This document shows, piece by piece, positions 34,645 to 47,228 of a stretch of 64,000 bases of DNA; position 1 is the stretch's first letter; the number at the start of each line of letters is the position of its first letter. A program made the position numbers and the translations under genes. The notes under the pieces were generated by a model. That model was not told where the DNA came from, did not search any database, and saw nothing but the letters and a program-made list of their open reading frames with translations. Source of the DNA: Phycisphaerales bacterium (GTDB lineage: Bacteria; Planctomycetota; Phycisphaerae; UBA1845); contig JADZBE010000027.1 of NCBI GenBank assembly GCA_020852275.1, positions 1 through 64,000 on the forward strand. The letters run 5' to 3'.

Positions 34645-36183
34645 GTGTTGACGCAACGATCTCGACGCGCGCACGGCGTGCGCCAAACGGGCCTGATCGT
34701 CGCCGCCGCCCTGGTTTTGGCCTGGTCCGGCTGCGCCAAGGTGGACCCACGGCCGGATTTTGAGCAGGTCAACCAGCGCGTCGGGGAGGCGATCGAGCCG
34801 GTCGGCGAAGGCCCGGCGGACGACGCGGAGTCGGTCCGGAAGCGGGCGGAAGAGATGCTCGCCGCCGGACTCACCGCGGACGACGCCATGCGGCTCTGTC
34901 TGCTCAACAACCCCGAGTTGGACGCGGCCTATGCGCGCGTGGGCATCGCACGGGCGGACCTGGTGCAGAGCGGGCTGTTTGCGAACCCGATGCTGGCGAC
35001 GTCGCTGCGCCTGCCGGACGAGGGCGGACTGGCCAACGCGATGCTCGACGTGGCGCAGAACATCACCGACCTGTGGCAGTTGCCCGTGCGGCGGCGATCG
35101 TCGCAGGCCGCGCTGGACCGCGAGATTCTCTCTGCCGCCCGTCAAATCGCCGCGGTGGCGCTGGACACGCAGCGGACGTACTTCCAGGCCGTCGCCGCGG
35201 AACGGCTGCGCGACATCAGCCTGGAGAACCTGGCGATTGCGCAGCGCCTGCTGGACGCGGCCGTCGCGCGGCAGGAAGCCGGCGCGGGCAGCGCGGTGGA
35301 GGTGAACCTCGCGCGGTCGGAAGTGCTGGCGATGGAGCTGGAATCGCGCAATGCGGGACTTGAGGCCTTCGACGCACGGCGCGAGCTGGCGATGAAGCTC
35401 GGGCTGACGCGCTCGCCGACGGAAGTGACGCTGACCGAGGGGTTGCCGGATCCCGTCAACTTCGACGTGGAAGTCGAGGCGCTGATCGAGCTGGCGTTGG
35501 ACCATCGCCTTGATCTGCTTGTCGCGGATCGCGAGGTCTCGATGGCGCTGGCGGACATGGACCTGGAGCGGCTGCGGGTGTTCCCTTCAGTCGAGCTGGG
35601 CATCTCCTTCGAGCGCGAGGCGCGGGAGCGCGGACAGGACACAAGCTACCTGAAGGAATCGGCCAAGGCATCGCTGGAGGCGCAGGAGTTCACGCTGGCG
35701 CCGTGGGGTAAGAGCCGGCGGCAGGGTGAAATGACCGTGCTCGGTCCGACGCTTTCGCTGGAGCTGCCCCTCTTTGATCAGAACCAGGCGCAGATCGCGC
35801 GGGCGTACTACGCCTGGCGCGAAGCGGCCGGACAGCGCGAGGCCATGCGCCGCCAGGCCGTGCAGGAAGTGCGGGGCGCGCACGAGCGCGCCCGCGTCGC
35901 CCTGACGAACGCCCGCTTCTACCACGATCAGTTGCTTCCGTTGCGCGAGCAGAACCTCGAGCTTTCGCGCGACGGATACCGCGCCGGCAAAACGCCGTTT
36001 TTCGACGTGTTGGATGCGCAGCGCAATCTGCTTAGGGCCCGCGGCGATGCCGTCGAGGCGCAGCGCGACGCCGCGCAAGAACTGACCGAACTCCAGCGCG
36101 CCGCGGGCCGACCGCTCCGCGAGCTGCTCTCGCCAACGACGCCGGCATCCGCCGAAACGCAAACCCAGGGATCGAAACCATGA
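34645..36183 (+). CDS. TolC-family outer-membrane efflux factor (CzcC/CusC type)
   Basis: 512 residues. The start is GTG with AAAGGA eight bases upstream. A lipoprotein-type signal (IVAAALVLAWSGC) is followed by two TolC-type coiled-coil repeats: LCLLNNPELDAAYARVGIARADLVQSGLFANP in the first, and VLGPTLSLELPLFDQNQAQIARAYY near residue 370 in the second. It would form the trimeric outer-membrane channel of a tripartite metal exporter. Its stop overlaps the next start by four bases (ATGA). It is the only outer-membrane factor in an operon with two pumps. Confidence 0.92.
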   Translation: MLTQRSRRAHGVRQTGLIVAAALVLAWSGCAKVDPRPDFEQVNQRVGEAIEPVGEGPADDAESVRKRAEEMLAAGLTADDAMRLCLLNNPELDAAYARVGIARADLVQSGLFANPMLATSLRLPDEGGLANAMLDVAQNITDLWQLPVRRRSSQAALDREILSAARQIAAVALDTQRTYFQAVAAERLRDISLENLAIAQRLLDAAVARQEAGAGSAVEVNLARSEVLAMELESRNAGLEAFDARRELAMKLGLTRSPTEVTLTEGLPDPVNFDVEVEALIELALDHRLDLLVADREVSMALADMDLERLRVFPSVELGISFEREARERGQDTSYLKESAKASLEAQEFTLAPWGKSRRQGEMTVLGPTLSLELPLFDQNQAQIARAYYAWREAAGQREAMRRQAVQEVRGAHERARVALTNARFYHDQLLPLREQNLELSRDGYRAGKTPFFDVLDAQRNLLRARGDAVEAQRDAAQELTELQRAAGRPLRELLSPTTPASAETQTQGSKP

Positions 36184-37592
36184 AAGCCTTGAACTTCCAC
36201 GCCGTTGCACTGTTGATCTGGATCGCGCCGCTGTCCTGCACCCGCAGACCGCAGGCGAACGAGAACCCGCCGAGCGCGAAAGCGTCGCACGCGGGGGACC
36301 GCGCCGGCGCGCAGGTTGCGGAAACCGATCACGCGCACGAAGGGCACGCGCACGAGGACGCCGCGGCCGAGCCGGCGCATGACCCTGCAGGCCATGCGCA
36401 CGAGGCCGCGACGGCTGAATCGTCGCATGAGCATGGTGAGAGCGAGCCCGCGCCGTCCGGGCACGTGGACGAGATCAAGCTCACGGCGGAGGCGGTCAAG
36501 CGACATGGAATCGAGGTCGCGGCGGCGGAGCAGCACAGGCTCAAGCCCACGTTCGTCGCTCCCGCCCAAGTGGGGTTCAACGCGGAGGCGATCGCCCATG
36601 TCGGGTCCTGGCTGCCGGGGCGCGTGCAGGAGCTGCGCGTCCGGCTCGGCGACGTCGTCAACAAGGGGGACGTTCTCCTCGTGGTGGAAAGCCCTGAGCT
36701 GGGAGAGGCACAGAGTGAGTTTCTCCAGAAGCGGATCATCGCCCAGACGGGGGTGTCCACCGTCGAGCTTGCAAAGAGCGGACTGGATCGGGCATCGCGC
36801 CTGTATGACCTCAACAAGAGCATCCCGCTTGACGAAGTGCAGAAGCGGGAGCTGGAATTCAAGTCGGCGCAAGCCCTGCAGTTGGCTGCTCAATCCGCCG
36901 CGCTCGCCGCGGAGAACAAGCTGCACCTGATGGGCATGGATCAGGCTGCCGTGCAGCAACTTGAGGAATCGGGGGAGGTCAACCCGCGAATGAACATCTT
37001 GGCGCCGCTCGCCGGGCGCGTGGTCGAACGCGAGGTCACGCTCGGCGAACTCGTCAGCCCTGAAAAAGAAGCCCTGATCGTCCTGGCGGATACGACGACC
37101 CTGTGGGTGCTGGCGGACGTGCCCGACGCACGCCTGCACGAAGTGAGCTTGGGCGCCGCGTCCTGGATCAGGTCGGATACACTCAGCGGACACAAGCACC
37201 CGGGTCAGGTGTCATACATCTCGCCGATGGTGGACCCGCGCACGCGCTCGGCCCAGGTCCGCGTCGCCGTCCAGTGCGAACACGGGACGCTGTGTCCCGG
37301 CATGTTCGTTCAAGTCGAAATCACGGCGACGAATCCCGCCGACCCGGATCCGGCGCCGCGGGTCGCCGTCCCGGAAGACGCGATCCAGACCGTGGAAGGC
37401 CTGCCTTCGGTTTTTGTCCCGGTCCCCGGCGAGTCCAACACGTTTTCCCCCCGCCCCGTCGTTCTCGGAAAACCGGTCGCCGGCATGGTCCCCGTCTATT
37501 CCGGATTGGCCGAGGGCGAGTCGTTCGTCAAGGGCGGCACGTTCATCCTGAAGGCCGAGCTGGGCAAAGGCGCCGCGGCACACGAACACTGA
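36180..37592 (+). CDS. RND efflux periplasmic adaptor, His-rich (CzcB type), unit 1
   Basis: 470 residues. After a lipoprotein-like signal (LLIWIAPLSC) comes a His/Glu-rich segment (about residues 50-98; DHAHEGHAHEDAAAEPAHDP and similar) likely to hold metal ions. The adaptor body follows: lipoyl-like half motifs VGSWLPGRVQELRVRLGDVVNKGDVLLVV and MNILAPLAGRVVEREVTLGELV around a coiled-coil hairpin, then a beta-barrel and membrane-proximal domain. This membrane-fusion protein links the pump to the outer channel and may hand over metal. The divalent-cation type (Zn, Co, Cd, Ni or Cu) cannot be fixed from sequence. Confidence 0.92.
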   Translation: MKALNFHAVALLIWIAPLSCTRRPQANENPPSAKASHAGDRAGAQVAETDHAHEGHAHEDAAAEPAHDPAGHAHEAATAESSHEHGESEPAPSGHVDEIKLTAEAVKRHGIEVAAAEQHRLKPTFVAPAQVGFNAEAIAHVGSWLPGRVQELRVRLGDVVNKGDVLLVVESPELGEAQSEFLQKRIIAQTGVSTVELAKSGLDRASRLYDLNKSIPLDEVQKRELEFKSAQALQLAAQSAALAAENKLHLMGMDQAAVQQLEESGEVNPRMNILAPLAGRVVEREVTLGELVSPEKEALIVLADTTTLWVLADVPDARLHEVSLGAASWIRSDTLSGHKHPGQVSYISPMVDPRTRSAQVRVAVQCEHGTLCPGMFVQVEITATNPADPDPAPRVAVPEDAIQTVEGLPSVFVPVPGESNTFSPRPVVLGKPVAGMVPVYSGLAEGESFVKGGTFILKAELGKGAAAHEH

Positions 37593-37624: not shown

Positions 37625-41113
<3,489 letters not shown>

Positions 41114-41135: not shown

Positions 41136-42671
41136 ATGAGGAACATCCTCGCCTTGACGATGGTCGCGGGCGTCGTGGCCGGCGGAGTCTGGTATGCACT
41201 GCGGCGTCCGCGGATTGCAGGGGAATCCGCCGCGGATGGATCGGTGTGCGCCGAGCACGGTTTGGCGCCGGCGGAGTGTCCCTGGTGCGACCCGACGCTC
41301 GTTGAAAAACTCGGCATGTGCGCCGGGCACGGCGTCCCCGAGGCGCTGTGCTGGAAGTGTCATGACAAGCTGGTCGCGGCGTTCAAGAAGAAGAACGATT
41401 GGTGCGCCGGACACGACTGCCCGGAATCGCTCTGCAAGATCTGCAATGGCGAGGGCGGTTCGGACAAGCCGGCGGCGGAGCGTGCCGGACAGGATGCCCC
41501 ACGCGCGGCGGCGGCTCCGGCTGGCGCCATCAACGGGGATGGGACGATTTCGCCAACGCGTCACTCGCAGGCGCCCAACGCGCGGTGTGAGACGGGCAAG
41601 ACGCTCGTGACGCTGGCCGACGCCGAGACGGTTCGAAGAGCGGGACTGGAGTTCGCCCCGGTGGAACGAAAGCCCATCAGTCAGACGATCTCCTGCAACG
41701 CTCAACTGGGGTACGACCTCAATCGCTTCGCGCGGCTGACCCCGCGCGCGCCAGGCCTGCTCAGCGAGGTCCGCGTAGACCTGGGGTCCGCCCTGCGCCG
41801 CGGCGACGTGCTGGCCGTCGTCGATTCCGCGGAGTTCGCCCAGGCGAAGGCCGACTACCTTCAGGCCGTCGCTTCGCTGCACCTGGCGGAAAAAAACAGC
41901 GACCGCGAACGGGAGCTGCACGAGCGTTCAGGCACGCCGATGAAGGATCTGCTCGAAGCCGAGGCCCGCCTCATCTCCAGTCAGATGGACGTCCGGAAGG
42001 CGAGCCTGCGGCTGCACACGCTGGGCTGGGACGACTCCCGCGTGCAGGGATTGGAGCAATCCAAGGACCTCAGTTCACTGCTGGAACTGGTCGCCCCGTT
42101 CGACGGTCTCGTGGTCGAGCGCAGCGCGGTCGTGGGGGAGAGCGTGGATACGACGCGCGCCCTGTTCGCGGTGGCGGATACGTCGCGGATGTGGGCGATG
42201 CTGGATCTCCATTCGTCCGACGCGGCGCTGCTGGCGCTGGGGCAGCCGGTGCAGGTGGACATCGACGGCGCAAGCGGACCGATCCCGGAGGCGCGCATCT
42301 CCTGGATCAGCACGGAGGTGGACCCCCGGACCCGGACGCTCAAGGCACGAGCCGAGCTGCACAACGCATCCTCTGCCCTGCGCGCCAACATGTTCGCGCA
42401 CGCGAAGGTCCGCGTGCTCGAGGAGCAGCCCCTGCTCACCGTGCCCAAGCCCGCGCTGCAATGGGACGGGTGCTGCAACATCGTCTTCGTTCGCAAGTCC
42501 GAACGGGAATTCGAGCCTCGAAAAGTGTCGCTCGGTTACGAAACACAGGACCTCGTGGAAATTCGCGGCGGCGTGACGGAGGGGGAAAGCGTCGTCACCA
42601 CCGGCAGTTATCTGCTCAAGACAGAAATCATGAAGAGCAGCATCGGGGCCGGCTGCTGCCCGGATGATTGA
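41136..42671 (+). CDS. RND efflux periplasmic adaptor with triple C-H-C-C repeat, unit 2
   Basis: 511 residues. An N-terminal membrane segment (LALTMVAGVVAGGVWYAL) is followed by three modules with identical C-x2-H-x6-C-x2-C spacing: C38/H41/C48/C51, C62/H65/C72/C75 and C90/H93/C100/C103. Each is a likely zinc- or copper-binding knuckle. The adaptor body runs from about residue 150: FARLTPRAPGLLSEVRVDLGSALRRGDVLAVVDS, a coiled coil, then LLELVAPFDGLVVERSAVVGES and VDPRTRTLKARAELHN. The C-terminus ends GAGCCPDD, adding another Cys pair. Similar knuckles occur in other planctomycete adaptors from memory; function as metal capture is inferred. Confidence 0.92.
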   Translation: MRNILALTMVAGVVAGGVWYALRRPRIAGESAADGSVCAEHGLAPAECPWCDPTLVEKLGMCAGHGVPEALCWKCHDKLVAAFKKKNDWCAGHDCPESLCKICNGEGGSDKPAAERAGQDAPRAAAAPAGAINGDGTISPTRHSQAPNARCETGKTLVTLADAETVRRAGLEFAPVERKPISQTISCNAQLGYDLNRFARLTPRAPGLLSEVRVDLGSALRRGDVLAVVDSAEFAQAKADYLQAVASLHLAEKNSDRERELHERSGTPMKDLLEAEARLISSQMDVRKASLRLHTLGWDDSRVQGLEQSKDLSSLLELVAPFDGLVVERSAVVGESVDTTRALFAVADTSRMWAMLDLHSSDAALLALGQPVQVDIDGASGPIPEARISWISTEVDPRTRTLKARAELHNASSALRANMFAHAKVRVLEEQPLLTVPKPALQWDGCCNIVFVRKSEREFEPRKVSLGYETQDLVEIRGGVTEGESVVTTGSYLLKTEIMKSSIGAGCCPDD

Positions 42672-42686
42672 GAATCGGCGATGTGT

Positions 42687-42734
42687 GGCACCGGTTTCCA
42701 ACCGGTGAGTGTAGCACAGGATTCCAACCTGTGC
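42687..42734. repeat. Repeat family 3, two units inside the efflux operon
   Basis: GGCACCGGTTTCCAACCGGT and GCACAGGATTCCAACCTGTG are two palindromic units of the GGTTGGAAACC family, in the 158-bp space between adaptor 2 and pump 2. Confidence 0.85.
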
Positions 42735-42829
42735 CGCTGCATATTCCCCATCATTGGAGCCTTATGGGAATCTCCATACTCGACTGCGAACCTCAGGATT
42801 TGCACCATTCAAGCTCGGGGACTGCCTGA

Positions 42830-45800
42830 ATGCTCAACCGGATCATCATCTGGTCACTGCAGAACCGCTTTCTGGTCATCGTCCTGACGGCGGCGCTGAT
42901 CGGCTCCGGGCTGGTTGCTCTGCGCCATCTGCCCATCGACGCCTTCCCGGACACCACCCCCGTGATGGTGCAGGTCAATGCCGTGGCGCCGTCGCTGGGT
43001 CCAGTGGAGATCGAACAGCAGATCACGGCGCCGCTGGAGCGCGTGGTGTCCGGCCTGCCCAAGTTGACGGAAGTCCGGTCGGTTTCCAAGTTCGGATTCT
43101 GCCAGCTCGCGGCCGTGTTTGAAGACGGCACGGACATTTACTTCGCGCGCCAGATGGTAAGCGAGCGACTGCAGTCTGCGGAATTGCCCGAGGGCGTGGA
43201 TCGACCTGAGCTTGGACCGATTGCCACGGGACTGGGGGAGATCTTTCATTATATTGTGACCAGTCCGACGCGGAGCCTCACGGAACTGACCACGATTCAG
43301 GACTGGATCATCAAGCCGCAACTGGCGTCCGTCTCCGGCGTGGCCGAGGTAAACACGTGGGGCGGGCAGCGCCGCCAGTTCCAGGTGCTTGTGCAGCCGG
43401 CCGCGCTCGTCAAACACTCCCTGACGCTCGACGACGTGCGCGACGCACTGCAACACAACAACCTCAGCGTCGGCGGCGGGCAGTTGATACAGGCGGGGGA
43501 ACTGCACGTCATCTATGGTCTGGCGCTGACCACCAACCTCGATCAAGTCGGCAACATTGTCATCGAGGCGCACGACGGCGTGCCCATTCGCATCCGCGAC
43601 GTGGCCGAGGTGCGAGAAGGTTATGAGATCCGTCGCGGCGGTGTCACCGCCAACGGGAAGGGAGAGATCGTCCACGGGCTGGGCTTCATGCTCATGGGCG
43701 AGAACAGCCATGACGTGACGCAGCGGCTCGAGGCCAAGCTGGACGAAGCGCGCAAGTCGCTGCCCGAGGACGTGGAAGTCCGCGTGGTGTACGAGCGCAC
43801 GGAGCTGGTTGACAGAGTCATCGCGACCGTGAAGCGCAACTTGTACGAGGGCGCCATTCTCGTGGTGGCGGTGTTGTTTGTATTCCTCGGCCACCTGCGC
43901 GCCGGCCTGATCGTAGCACTGGCTATCCCCCTTTCCATGTTTTTCGCCTTCAACAACATGGTGCGTTTCGGCATTGCCGCCAGTCTGCTCAGTCTGGGCG
44001 CCATAGACTTCGGCCTGGTCGTGGACAGCACCGTCATCATGGTGGAGAACTGCGTCCGCCGCCTGGAGCAGGCCGGAGAGGCGCGACCCGCGCGGGAGGT
44101 CGTGCGCGACGCGGCGATTGAAGTTCGCGGACCCACGATGTTCGGCGAACTTATCATCATGGTCGTCTATCTGCCCATTCTTCTGCTCGAAGGAATCGAA
44201 GGCAAACTGTTCCGGCCGATGGCGCTGACGGTCTTGTTCGCCCTGGCCAGTTCGCTGGTGTTGTCGCTGACGCTCATGCCGGTGTTGTGCAGTCTGTTCC
44301 TTCGCCGCAAGCAACATGCCGCGAAGGAAAACGCATTGATCCGTCTGTTGCAGGCGATTTTCAGACCCCTCATCCGCGCGGCGGTGCGTCACTGTGTTTT
44401 GACGCTTTCCGGCGGACTGGTCTTGTTGGGCGGCGGCGTGTGGCTAGGGGCCGGCCTGGGCGCGGAGTTTATTCCGCGTCTGTCCGAAATGGCCATTGTC
44501 ATGAACACGGTCCGGTTGGCCGGCGTGTCGCTGGATGAATCGCTGCGCTATGGAACACGGATTGAGCAACTGCTGTTGGAACGCTTTCCGGATGAAATCC
44601 GGGACGTCTGGAGCCGGACCGGCTCGGCGGAGATTGCGACCGACCCGATGGGACTGGAATTGACGGACATTTTTCTGACGCTCGAGCCGCGCGAGCAATG
44701 GAAGCGCGCGACTTCCCAGGACGAACTCGTGGAGCGCCTGGACGAGGAATTGGCGCGCCTGCCCGGCATGAACGTCGCCTTCAGTCAGCCGATTGAAATG
44801 CGCATGAACGAGATGATCGCCGGGATTCGCGCCGACGTGGGGGTCAAGATTTTCGGCGAAGACCTGGAGGTTTTGAAACAGCAGGCTCGCGCCGCGGAGA
44901 CGATCCTCAAGTCGATCCCCGGCAGCGCGGACGTCTCGGTCGAGCAGATCACCGGGCTGCCGGTGGTGGAAGTGCGCATCGATCAGGACGCCGTCGCGCG
45001 CCACGGCGTGCCCGCGGCGCACGTACTGGAGATGATCGAGGCCCTCGGCGGCATCACGGTCGGACAGGTCCGCGAAGGGGACCGCCGGTTCGACCTCGTG
45101 GTCAAGCTCGGCGAGAATGTGGCGCGGGATGTTGCCGCCCTGTCGGACCTGCTGATCACCACGGCTTCCGGCGAGCAGCTTCCCCTGCACCGCCTGGCGA
45201 CCCTCCGCCAGGTTGAAGGACCGGCCACCATCAACCGTGAGTGGCAGAAGCGCCGGATCATTGCGCAGTGCAACGTGCGCGGCCGCGACCTGGGCGGGTT
45301 CGTCAGCGAAGCAGCGGGCAGATTGAATGCGGAGTTGAGACTGCCCGTGGGGTATCACTGGACGCTCGGCGGTCAGTATCAGCACCTCATCCGTGCGAGC
45401 AAGCGGCTCTCGGTTGTCGTTCCGCTGGCCTTGGCGATGATCCTGGTGCTGCTCTACTTGAGCGTGCGATCGGTGCGCGATGCGCTGATCATCTTCTCCG
45501 GCGCGCCGTTCGCCGCGTTGGGCGGCATCGTCGCGCTGTGGTTGCGGGACATGCCGTTCACCATTGCCGCGGGCGTGGGCTTCGTGGCCGTGTCCGGCGT
45601 GTCCATGCTCAATGGGTTGGTGCTCGTTTCGACGCTGCGCCAACGCCTTGCCGCGGGCGTCGCGCTGCCTGAGGCGATCGAAGAAACGCGCGTCATGCGC
45701 CTGCGCCCGATCCTGATGACGGCGACCGTGGCCGCGCTGGGCTTCATCCCCATGGCGCTGAACACGGGCATCGGCGCGGAAGTGCAGCGCCCGCTGGCGA

Positions 45801-45943
45801 CGGTGGTGATCGGCGGCGTCATTTCGGACAACCTGCTGACGTTGATGATGATCCCGGCGCTGTATTCGCTGCTGGGCGCGGGGCGCGTGACGAAGCGCGA
45901 AGCTGTCGGCATGGAATCTGTGGGTGGCACTCCGTCGATGTGA
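42830..45943 (+). CDS. Heavy-metal RND pump (CzcA type), unit 2
   Basis: 1037 residues, the usual length. It carries the HME helix-4 motif SLGAIDFGLVVDSTVIMVENCVRR (about residue 393), with Ser-Thr in place of Gly-Ala in unit 1. N-terminal LPIDAFPDTTPVMVQVNA and the second-repeat GGQYQHLIRASKRLSVVVPLALAMILVLLYLS are as expected. It lacks the His-rich periplasmic insertion of unit 1. Sequence differences in the central helices and the different adaptor suggest a different metal specificity. It follows a 158-bp gap containing repeats, and it is not known whether transcription continues across that gap. Confidence 0.95.
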   Translation: MLNRIIIWSLQNRFLVIVLTAALIGSGLVALRHLPIDAFPDTTPVMVQVNAVAPSLGPVEIEQQITAPLERVVSGLPKLTEVRSVSKFGFCQLAAVFEDGTDIYFARQMVSERLQSAELPEGVDRPELGPIATGLGEIFHYIVTSPTRSLTELTTIQDWIIKPQLASVSGVAEVNTWGGQRRQFQVLVQPAALVKHSLTLDDVRDALQHNNLSVGGGQLIQAGELHVIYGLALTTNLDQVGNIVIEAHDGVPIRIRDVAEVREGYEIRRGGVTANGKGEIVHGLGFMLMGENSHDVTQRLEAKLDEARKSLPEDVEVRVVYERTELVDRVIATVKRNLYEGAILVVAVLFVFLGHLRAGLIVALAIPLSMFFAFNNMVRFGIAASLLSLGAIDFGLVVDSTVIMVENCVRRLEQAGEARPAREVVRDAAIEVRGPTMFGELIIMVVYLPILLLEGIEGKLFRPMALTVLFALASSLVLSLTLMPVLCSLFLRRKQHAAKENALIRLLQAIFRPLIRAAVRHCVLTLSGGLVLLGGGVWLGAGLGAEFIPRLSEMAIVMNTVRLAGVSLDESLRYGTRIEQLLLERFPDEIRDVWSRTGSAEIATDPMGLELTDIFLTLEPREQWKRATSQDELVERLDEELARLPGMNVAFSQPIEMRMNEMIAGIRADVGVKIFGEDLEVLKQQARAAETILKSIPGSADVSVEQITGLPVVEVRIDQDAVARHGVPAAHVLEMIEALGGITVGQVREGDRRFDLVVKLGENVARDVAALSDLLITTASGEQLPLHRLATLRQVEGPATINREWQKRRIIAQCNVRGRDLGGFVSEAAGRLNAELRLPVGYHWTLGGQYQHLIRASKRLSVVVPLALAMILVLLYLSVRSVRDALIIFSGAPFAALGGIVALWLRDMPFTIAAGVGFVAVSGVSMLNGLVLVSTLRQRLAAGVALPEAIEETRVMRLRPILMTATVAALGFIPMALNTGIGAEVQRPLATVVIGGVISDNLLTLMMIPALYSLLGAGRVTKREAVGMESVGGTPSM

Positions 45944-45996
45944 ATCGGGCCTGCGGATGCGTCACGATTCTGCCGAGACGTGGGTTTGGAATGCTG

Positions 45997-46178
45997 CACA
46001 GGTTGGAAACCTGTGCTACCGCCACCGGTTGGAAACCTGGGCTACAGCCACCGGTTGGAAACCGGTGCCACAGGCACCGATTGGGAACCTGGGCTACAGC
46101 CACCGGTTGGAAACCGGTGCCACAGAGACCGGTTGGGAACCTGGGCATTAGGAACAGGTTGGACACCGGTGCCACATT
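45997..46178. repeat. Repeat family 3, seven-unit 26-bp tandem array
   Basis: GGTTGG (or GATTGG) recurs at 46001, 46027, 46053, 46079, 46105, 46131 and 46157, an exact 26-bp period. Units have the form CACCGGTTGGAAACCGGTGC with imperfect palindromy. The array sits between the convergent ends of pump 2 and trxB. Reading frames through it give TGWKPVPQ-type peptides that are not proteins. Confidence 0.9.
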
Positions 46179-46187
46179 CACCTCTGC

Positions 46188-47228
46188 TCAGTGCACGCCC
46201 TTGTCGGCGAGCCACCGCTCCGCGTCGATCGCCGCCTTGCAGCCCATGCCCGCGGCCGTGATCGCCTGGCGATAGACGCTGTCCACGCAATCGCCCGCGG
46301 CGAACACACCGTCCACGCTGGCCATCGAGCGGAAGGCGTCCGTCAGCTTGATGTACCCCTTGGCGTCGAGCGAGAGTTGTCCGCCGAGGAAGGCGGTCGC
46401 CGGGGTGTGACCGATGGCGCAGAACATGCCGGACACCGGCAGGTCAGACATCGCGCCGGTCACCGTGTCCTTCAATCGCAAGGCGGTGATGTGCTGATCA
46501 CCGAGCACGTCGGCGACCGTCTTGTTCCACTGTGGCGCGATTTTGGGATTGGAGAGCGCCCGCTGCTGCATGATCTTGCTGGCGCGAAGCTGATCGCGGC
46601 GGTGAATGAGGTACACCTTGGACGCGAACTTGGTCAGATATGACGCTTCCTCGATGGCCGAGTCGCCGCCGCCGATGACCGCGACGTCTTTGTTGCGAAA
46701 CGCCGGCAAAGCCCCGTCGCACACGGCGCAGGCGCTGACGCCCCCTCCGCTGCGCGCCAGCCGCTGCTCGTTGGGCAGGTTCAGCCAGTTGGCCGTCGCG
46801 CCGGTGGCGACGATCACACTTTGCGCGCGGTACTCGGTTCCGTCCTCGCCGACGACTTTGAACGGACGGCTGCCAAGATCCACGCTCGCGCAGTCGTGAT
46901 AGGCGGCGTCGTGCCCGTTGAAGCGGTCGGAGACGTCGGGGTCGAATCCCTTGTCGCTGACGACGCGCGTGCCGAACCGCACGGCCTGCTGCTCGAAGTG
47001 CCACATCAGCGTCGGTCCGTCCACGCCGTGCGGGAAGCCCGGGTAGTTCTCAACTTCCGTGGTGAGCATGAGCTGTCCGCCGGGGAGGATCGTCGTCGGC
47101 GTCTGCTTGGGCCGGCCGGCGAACACGAGCGGGGCGAGGTTCGCCCGCGCGGCGTAGATCGCGGCCGTCCAGCCGGCGGGACCGGATCCGATGATGATGA
47201 CCTTCTCCACGTTCGCGTGCGTTGTCAT
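46188..47228 (-). CDS. trxB: Thioredoxin reductase
   Basis: 346 residues, slightly longer than the usual 320. This cytoplasmic FAD enzyme transfers electrons from NADPH to thioredoxin. The FAD-binding motif is IIIGSGPAGWTAAIYAARANL (about residues 11-31), the redox-active dithiol is CAVCDGALP (C167, C170), and NADPH binding is VAVIGGGDSAIEEASYL. The C-terminal FAD signature GVFAAGDCVDSVYRQAITAAGMGCKAAIDAERWL is intact. AGGCAGG is upstream. No thioredoxin gene is adjacent. Confidence 0.96.
   Translation of the reverse strand: MTTHANVEKVIIIGSGPAGWTAAIYAARANLAPLVFAGRPKQTPTTILPGGQLMLTTEVENYPGFPHGVDGPTLMWHFEQQAVRFGTRVVSDKGFDPDVSDRFNGHDAAYHDCASVDLGSRPFKVVGEDGTEYRAQSVIVATGATANWLNLPNEQRLARSGGGVSACAVCDGALPAFRNKDVAVIGGGDSAIEEASYLTKFASKVYLIHRRDQLRASKIMQQRALSNPKIAPQWNKTVADVLGDQHITALRLKDTVTGAMSDLPVSGMFCAIGHTPATAFLGGQLSLDAKGYIKLTDAFRSMASVDGVFAAGDCVDSVYRQAITAAGMGCKAAIDAERWLADKGVH

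Follow-up and report, generated by a model that had tools for sequence, protein, structure and literature searches.

The window analysed here is a stretch of 64,000 nucleotides from a Phycisphaerales bacterium (assembly GCA_020852275.1, contig JADZBE010000027.1, positions 1 to 64,000 of the forward strand), and our subject is an RND periplasmic adaptor encoded in it that carries an array of CHCC knuckles at its N-terminus. The adaptor is part of a cluster with the order outer membrane factor (OMF), upstream adaptor (AD1), upstream RND transporter (RND1), knuckle adaptor and partner RND transporter (RND2). A gap of 22 bases separates it from RND1, and the transporter gene linked to it is that of RND2 (Table 1).

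Table 1. Features of the cluster and of the knuckle adaptor (window positions; the last three rows give sites in other genomes)
Feature	Position	Strand	Remarks
OMF (OEP)	34645..36183	+	sole OMF gene identified in the cluster
AD1, upstream adaptor	36180..37592	+	without knuckles; His-rich N-terminal segment
RND1, upstream RND transporter	37625..41113	+	transmembrane helix 4 (TMH4) motif DFGLIVDGAVIIVEN; His-rich insert near residue 692
RND periplasmic adaptor with N-terminal CHCC knuckle array, 511 aa	41136..42671	+	HlyD_D23 body; nearest solved adaptor ZneB
N-terminal hydrophobic helix, residues 2-22	41139..41201	+	helix in AlphaFold2 (AF2) model; presumed inner-membrane anchor
Knuckle unit 1, CAEHGLAPAECPWC, C38/H41/C48/C51 (residues 38-51)	41247..41288	+	aligned cysteines in 36/64 relatives
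Knuckle unit 2, CAGHGVPEALCWKC, C62/H65/C72/C75 (residues 62-75)	41319..41360	+	ligands in 64/64 aligned adaptors (set partly pattern-chosen)
Knuckle unit 3, CAGHDCPESLCKIC, C90/H93/C100/C103 (residues 90-103)	41403..41444	+	ligands in 64/64 aligned adaptors (set partly pattern-chosen)
GCCN motif, C446/C447, in the adaptor body	42468..42479	+	cysteines in 40/64 and 41/64 relatives
C-terminal IGAGCC tail, C507/C508	42642..42659	+	C507 in 64/64, C508 in 54/64 unit-bearing adaptors
RND2, partner RND transporter	42830..45943	+	ACR_tran (898 bits); ZneA/CzcA-like; TMH4 motif DFGLVVDSTVIMVEN at 44006-44050
AD1 relative and knuckle adaptor	G026:C1 2819283-2827948		
AD1 relative and knuckle adaptor	G023:C161 20005-30521		
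AD1 relative and knuckle adaptor	G038:C11 45495-58492		

The knuckle array and its adaptor

A six-frame translation of the 64 kb contains three matches to C-x2-H-x6-C-x2-C, all of them in the 511-residue adaptor, with start-to-start spacings of 24 and 28 residues, while none of 200,000 shuffles of its first 120 residues gave three matches. An earlier note on this DNA had described the three identically spaced modules and all of the residue numbers that it gave are correct. The '(A/V)PE-x-(L/x)C' core that it assigned to each of them was overstated, being present in unit 2 (VPEALC) but not in unit 1 (LAPAEC) or unit 3 (CPESLC). Unit 3 contains an additional, non-ligand cysteine (C95). Unit 2 reads C72-W-K-C75-H76, which makes it a CxxCH, and in units 1 and 3 the residues that follow are Asp and Asn.

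The body of the protein matches HlyD_D23 of Pfam with an E-value of 1.9e-43 (148.7 bits against a cut-off of 30) and HlyD_3 with 9.4e-17, so that its previous labelling as an RND adaptor was correct. The closest NCBIfam models are those of CzcB/NccB-type and RND_mfp adaptors, the score being above the RND_mfp cut-off and below that of TIGR00999. As the adaptor body is periplasmic the knuckle segment would be expected to be so too; the basic residues of the anchor lie mainly on the C-terminal side of the helix (R23, R24 and R26) and alone would not favour an outside location for what is downstream. After the anchor and up to residue 140, M61 is the only methionine, so that there is no N-terminal site with several methionines of the kind seen in CusB. 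The array is indeed distinct from the methionine sites of CusF and CusB and from His-rich tails, as had been proposed.

To collect relatives, one genome per species was scanned with peptide patterns in which residues of the unit (Cys, His, Pro and Glu) were included; this gave 438 hits, 405 of which were confirmed and the best 80 kept. Open reading frames (ORFs) at these loci were counted as unit-bearing if they contained a strict unit. The adaptor of the window, L010, L011 and 61 of the 77 long ORFs make up an alignment of 64 adaptors, 16 near-duplicates or misread frames having been left out, and HlyD_D23 matches the body of every one (E≤0.01). The four ligands of unit 2 (C62, H65, C72 and C75) and the four of unit 3 (C90, H93, C100 and C103) are invariant across the alignment, together with D88, W89 and P96. 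E97 and S98 are kept in at least 90% of it; some of the conserved residues were in the search pattern. The eight ligands are likewise invariant in all 26 of the small proteins described below. Some of these residues were part of the patterns by which the two sets were collected, and to that extent the invariance is built in. The loop between the two halves has six residues in 207 of the 222 units found with a looser pattern and four or five in the rest. Long ORFs carry between one and eight units by the strict count and up to about 12 by a loose one, and in L114 neighbouring repeats of 95 residues are up to 92% identical, which indicates that the arrays grow by tandem duplication.

Whether the module is an established domain was also considered. 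No model of Pfam or NCBIfam matches the knuckle segment of the window at E≤1, and over the 26 small proteins and the 64 adaptors the two libraries gave scattered weak matches, none of which is convincing. In the small proteins these were to DUF2749 (4.4e-4, one member), DUF5879 (five members, best 0.0022), zf-B_box_Trim66 (seven members, best 0.011) and a handful of further zinc-finger families, each matched by one or two proteins. A second library scan of the small proteins gave 7.6e-4 at best, in one member, and two families with zinc-ribbon-type names, each matched by a single protein at 0.004-0.008; single adaptors matched DUF2196, GATA_AreA and zf-B_box_Trim66 at 1.7e-4 to 0.0084. All of these were judged to reflect chance or common cysteine spacing. 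A sequence search of the PDB returned only cereblon (E≥0.15), which was rejected as chance, and a structure search with VIA-align found nothing. In the AF2 model of the isolated segment the mean predicted local distance difference test score (pLDDT) is 82, with blocks at 89-93 over residues 11-70 and short helices after the first two units. The model of the full adaptor (pLDDT 89.7) has residues 41-100 at 92-96, the block with the first cysteine of unit 1 reaching only 68. The array is modelled as isolated bridges and short helices with no barrel, and a CusF-like β-barrel is therefore not predicted.

The closest analogue of the unit is HMBD (PF19335), which it resembles in the order C-x2-H ... 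C-x2-C, in its length of about 26 residues and in its occurrence on RND adaptors, including one of the window's genome. The HMBD loop, however, is 10 or 11 residues long in all 38 examples collected, for which the pattern admitted loops of 6-14 residues and demanded a Met downstream of CxxC, compared with mostly six in the unit, and HMBD ends in a CPxCGM-like sequence where the unit has CxxCN, mostly with Asn. HMBD-bearing adaptors also form a branch of their own in the adaptor tree (10 rows, one change, local support 97). PF19335 does not match the window segment (E≤1), and it is absent from the 15 families matched by the 26 small proteins (E≤0.1) and from the 11 matched by the 64 adaptors (E≤0.01). 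Comparison of the two with hhalign gave 68.8% over 13 columns, covering only the CxxC half. Membership of HMBD was rejected on the basis of the loop length and the lack of a model match, though a common origin of the two is possible. HMBD is present in 32 of 40 genomes, those of the window and its relatives; in the window's own genome it is found three times in an adaptor frame of 919 codons (G000:C42:50543-52408).

Operons, companion proteins and the C-terminal tail

A search for the module across adaptors, which the earlier note had put forward as a check, shows it to be a real repeated domain. Within the stretch examined at each of the 80 loci an adaptor was seen at 79, an RND transporter at 74 and an OMF at 28. 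The units were scored by script as fused to the adaptor at 78 loci; L104, scored otherwise, also has two units on its adaptor, and the stretch at L111 stops before any adaptor. At L101 the adaptor frame is short and no RND gene was found in about 4 kb downstream. A looser pattern reveals units that the strict one missed in the adaptors of L104, L162, L170, L174 and others. As a less biased check 20 further places were taken from a search of the phylum; 18 of these are weak matches (E 1e-10 to 1e-3) that a profile, and not the pattern, had picked up. Here too the adaptor and the RND were each present at 19 of the 20. All 18 weak places are on adaptors, 17 of which keep at least one complete C-x1/2-H-x4-8-C-x2-C unit. 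L172 is a standalone protein of two units adjoining the RND end, and L173 one of three units upstream of an adaptor that has none. With an adaptor and an RND transporter at nearly all of the 80 loci and the 20 further places, the association of the domain with RND pump operons is a close one.

At 26 of the 80 loci the unit is also encoded as a small protein (107-159 aa in the frames used), which has an N-terminal hydrophobic anchor or, as judged by eye, a lipoprotein-like signal, followed by two or three units; no domain other than the unit was recognised in these proteins. The gene lies just upstream of that of the adaptor in 23 cases and after the RND gene in two (L040 and L060), the stretch at L111 being too short to tell. 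In the phylum search a copy in a small frame (≤200 codons) was found within 8 kb of one in a large frame in 22 of 59 genomes by hand count; the small-frame copy frequently lies some 4.8 kb downstream, beyond the RND gene. The standalone gene of plasmid pK2D_1, K2D_47010, is annotated as 'hypothetical protein' and directly follows czcCBA; after it come genes whose annotations read heavy-metal-associated protein, cadA, thioredoxin and czcD, and merA lies on the other side. The window's own genome has a single place with the unit, and no standalone copy was found there.

The N-terminal segment was matched in 22 of the 40 genomes mentioned above, and the unit in 11 of 120 genomes of the class and at least 59 of 294 genomes of the phylum, samples that both include the window's genome; the latter figure is a lower bound as up to 23 candidates per genome were scored. 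By record title the best 80 of the 405 loci belong to ten phyla, many of them coming from metagenome bins: Planctomycetota (40), Myxococcota (19), Acidobacteriota (3), Thermodesulfobacteriota (3), Cloacimonadota, Armatimonadota and Calditrichota (2 each) and Zixibacteria, Eisenbacteria and Ignavibacteriota (1 each), with 6 unplaced. Among 72,556 plasmid records the unit was found in two, both planctomycete. Viral contigs gave one place only, with a match spanning 12 residues, and phages gave no match. Some arrays are divergent. The adaptor on a plasmid of Planctomyces sp. SH-PL62 (L154:14869-16398) has one strict unit together with further segments that resemble units but are spaced differently (x7 loop, C-x-H), and an adaptor of the planctomycete sample (L160:1239-3317) has nine loosely matching, diverged knuckles of the type CKEH-x-RYEDRCWLCHPD. 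Knuckles of this type, which also occur in L162 and L174, are possibly a second subfamily of the unit.

Beyond the single protein, the companion and the distribution, there is also a conserved cysteine tail at the C-terminus. Its presence was counted in 138 distinct adaptor ORFs with a C-terminus, duplicates by the last 150 residues having been dropped. A G-x-G-C tail is present in 97 of the 99 adaptors with two or more units, in three of nine with one unit, in one of 19 with none and in none of the 11 with HMBD. The two multi-unit adaptors that do not have it, L101 and L014, appear to be damaged or truncated, and six one-unit adaptors terminate exactly at GAG. The only adaptor with the tail and no units is that of L173, where the separate protein with three units is encoded upstream. 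A FastTree tree was built of 132 adaptor bodies, from which the tail was removed where the body match reached it; L101, L014 and ORFs that were too short were left out. Units and tail change six times each on this tree. Independent pairs on branches with good support number three or four, two or three of them concordant, and a sign test is not significant.

The partner pump and its surroundings

Of the solved pumps, RND2 is closer to ZneA (4k0e, 667 bits) than to CusA (572 bits). The methionines of the CusA copper site, M573, M623 and M672 (available text of PMC8092243), are opposite N559, L611 and a glutamate in an alignment read by eye, so that RND2 does not show the copper site of a CusA-type Cu/Ag pump (HME4). 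The acidic residue E625 near the copper site of CusA aligns with D613 of RND2. E136, D172, E610 and D654, which we take to be the zinc site of ZneA, are opposite E, E, D and M. The TMH4 motif of HME1 and HME2 pumps, which transport Co, Zn, Cd or Ni, is given as DFGX3DGAX3VEN in the available part of PMC3637150; RND1 conforms to this and RND2 does not. In the operons the TMH4 of the partner RND mostly reads DFGL[IV]VDSSVI (40 of 42 in a motif-selected set) in place of the DGA of HME1/2, and SSV is found in 47 of 68 downstream ORFs, a count in which at least five of the remainder are spurious frames.

A helix-turn-helix (HTH) of the ArsR type was recognised in six of 139 flanking ORFs, a set drawn from 150 that were themselves taken from 194. 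For ArsR-like regulators a stricter pattern gave none and a looser one three, two of which have a CVC motif and are encoded by upstream genes of two operons; we presume this motif to be metal-related. The ZneA-like pump that has no CusA methionines, the cadA, czcD and merA neighbours on the plasmid, the ArsR-type HTH and the CVC regulators all favour a substrate that is probably a thiophilic divalent ion of the Zn/Cd/Pb class. Copper, which the earlier note had offered alongside zinc as the bound metal, is disfavoured as substrate, because RND2 is closer to ZneA than to CusA and has other residues opposite the copper-site methionines.

The remainder of the cluster has features of its own. The N-terminal segment of AD1 (window 36327-36470) has 10 His in 48 residues and the His-rich insert of RND1 is at about 39698, so the cluster combines a His-type pump and a Cys/His-type pump with a single OMF gene. 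Three further genomes have a relative of AD1 (62-70% identity) no more than about 12 kb away from a knuckle adaptor (Table 1), which suggests that the double-pump island is conserved across genomes; in two more (G036 and G016) relatives of AD1 are found without a unit match. A 26-bp tandem repeat whose cores are GGTTGGAAACC-like and partly palindromic lies 3' of RND2 (window 45971-46182), and two sequences related to it by eye are found in the 158 bp that separate the knuckle adaptor gene from RND2 (42672-42829). These may be repetitive extragenic palindromic (REP)-like elements. Convergent with the pump cluster is a gene for a pyridine nucleotide-disulphide oxidoreductase (46188-47228, minus strand) that is thioredoxin-reductase-like and has one CAVC. 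A scan for promoters gave none, and terminator-like sites did not exceed chance.

Possible function and relation to known systems

We put at roughly 55% the probability that an apparently unnamed CHCC domain takes up a thiophilic divalent metal close to the inner membrane and supplies it to the pump. Each unit would be one knuckle of about 24-28 residues, made up of C-x2-H, a short loop, C-x2-C and then often a short helix, and its three Cys and single His would coordinate one ion of the Zn/Cd/Pb class. Placed between the anchor and the adaptor body, the array would be expected close to the membrane, near the periplasmic entrance of the RND transporter. Metal caught there from the periplasm would be handed to the adaptor and the RND, perhaps via the conserved IGAGC(C) tail. 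In the many other species that have it, the separate lipoprotein-like or anchored unit protein would act as a metal donor or reservoir. The operon context and the expansion in copy number fit a role in metal capture. Capture followed by hand-off is favoured since the anatomy parallels that of Cus, with an N-terminal metal-type segment, a companion small protein and a metal-type pump, and the best reading is a working mode like that of CusF and the N-terminus of CusB with other chemistry.

A number of points weigh against capture and hand-off. Cys-rich metal sites are unusual in the oxidising periplasm. The only structures returned by Foldseek were two chains of MtrC, a multihaem cytochrome, with E-values of 6.4 and 6.8 and a probability of 0.01, and a known metal fold gains no support from any solved structure. 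The first unit is variable, with aligned cysteines in just 36 of the 64 adaptors, and 30 of the 222 units deviate from x2/x6 (192 are x2/x6, 15 x1/x6, 13 x2/x4 and two x3/x5). At L168, one of the weak places, the unit is damaged and has lost a ligand. One-unit adaptors exist and that of L173 has no units, so an array is not essential. The association of units with the tail is largely one of shared ancestry. No metal-resistance phenotype was found for any family member. At least 10 loci have a downstream RND with a different TMH4 motif, some of a non-DFG type, and HME3b pumps are listed as pumps for monovalent cations (available text of PMC7060636 and PMC3637150). The substrate may be monovalent should DFGL[IV]VDSSVI belong to HME3b.

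The main rival, which we regard as distinctly less probable than capture, is that the knuckles are structural, a permanently bound metal folding a docking platform for oligomerisation of the adaptor or for recruitment of the RND, OMF or small protein, with no ion handed on. The fixed ligand spacing is typical of such sites, the AF2 models are compact and confident, and the conserved non-ligand residues D88, W89, P96, E97 and S98 suggest a shared surface, though some of them were in the search pattern. However, a platform would not be expected to vary between one copy and about 12 or to multiply through recent tandem duplications, nor would so close a tie to metal-type pumps be expected. Less likely again is a metal-responsive switch or buffer, in which the array senses or stores periplasmic metal and alters the activity of the pump without delivering ions. 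CusB is reported to activate CusA, and ZneB to bind zinc with a conformational change (available text of PMC4446572). The graded copy number would also suit a buffer, yet the sequence gives no separation of this from delivery, and the standalone forms suit a carrier or a reservoir as well as they do a switch.

Disulfide-bonded or redox modules free of metal seem improbable. While the periplasmic location, the CxxC pairs and the even cysteine totals of paired units would be in keeping with these, the three Cys of each unit leave one unpaired within it. Six of the eight small proteins with three units have no other cysteine, and the His, which disulfides would not need, is kept in all 64 adaptors and all 26 small proteins (sets partly chosen by pattern). 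Three cysteines and a conserved His per unit, with no further Cys in most of these three-unit proteins, argue for a metal site and against a pure disulfide role. Covalent attachment of haem c can be largely discounted, for although unit 2 of the window has a CxxCH and the Foldseek rows were of a multihaem cytochrome, the residue after CxxC is His in only 32 of the 222 units and one of the three here, with Asn in 115.

Returning to capture and hand-off, a more elaborate version can be put forward tentatively, and we think it rather less likely than not to hold in full: a hitherto undescribed thiol-based metal relay in which the CHCC domain, as a separate lipoprotein and as an N-terminal adaptor array of one to about 12 copies, would gather ions of the Zn/Cd/Pb class at the membrane and deliver them via the IGAGC(C) tail to a ZneA-like RND, the copy number being tuned by duplication to the metal load. 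The periplasmic route of metal to RND pumps has been worked out mainly for copper and silver, from CusF to CusB to CusA. If the relay is true there would be a second, chemically different delivery route, on ZneA-like pumps for divalent metals, and whether such pumps too accept delivered metal would become open to direct test. The new element is a putative metal-binding domain, and its presumed role as adaptor extension or chaperone is a known one, with no new kind of system. Naming the unit would improve annotation, in that no Pfam or NCBIfam model of the releases searched is convincing and the standalone form is a 'hypothetical protein' in the one annotated record with it among those examined, and the range of copy number offers a natural series for binding capacity.

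No published description of the unit, the tail or the TMH4 motif of the partner pumps was found by sequence string or by topic, in a search that covered the subscription literature thinly. In the available part of a 2026 review of adaptors (PMC13328181) ZneB appears in the reference list only and there is nothing on cysteine, zinc, CusF, CzcB or metal-binding. Among known systems ZneCAB/CzcCBA provides the nearest solved adaptor (ZneB, 3lnn) and the nearest RND (ZneA). The alignment with ZneB starts only at residue 146, however, and nothing in the 359-residue ZneB chain corresponds to the knuckle segment. The hmyFCBA operon of Cupriavidus (HME3b) likewise combines a metal RND with a small extra protein, HmyF, which is predicted to be CusF-like with low identity to CusF (available text of PMC7060636) and was compared by description only. 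SilB of C. metallidurans has an extra metal-chaperone domain that also occurs standalone (available text of PMC4446572), though this is a C-terminal CusF-like β-barrel rather than an N-terminal CHCC repeat. Cus of E. coli has, like the operons described here, a metal-type RND adaptor with a metal-related N-terminal extension and a small operon protein, the latter found in relatives of the window system. In Cus, metal is bound by the first 61 residues of CusB, to which CusF hands it over and from which it moves on to CusA; methionine clusters serve for Cu(I)/Ag(I), and CusF is a β-barrel (available text of PMC4446572). In contrast, the knuckle system combines putative Cys3His knuckles, which form one and the same domain in adaptor and small protein, with a pump that is ZneA-like.

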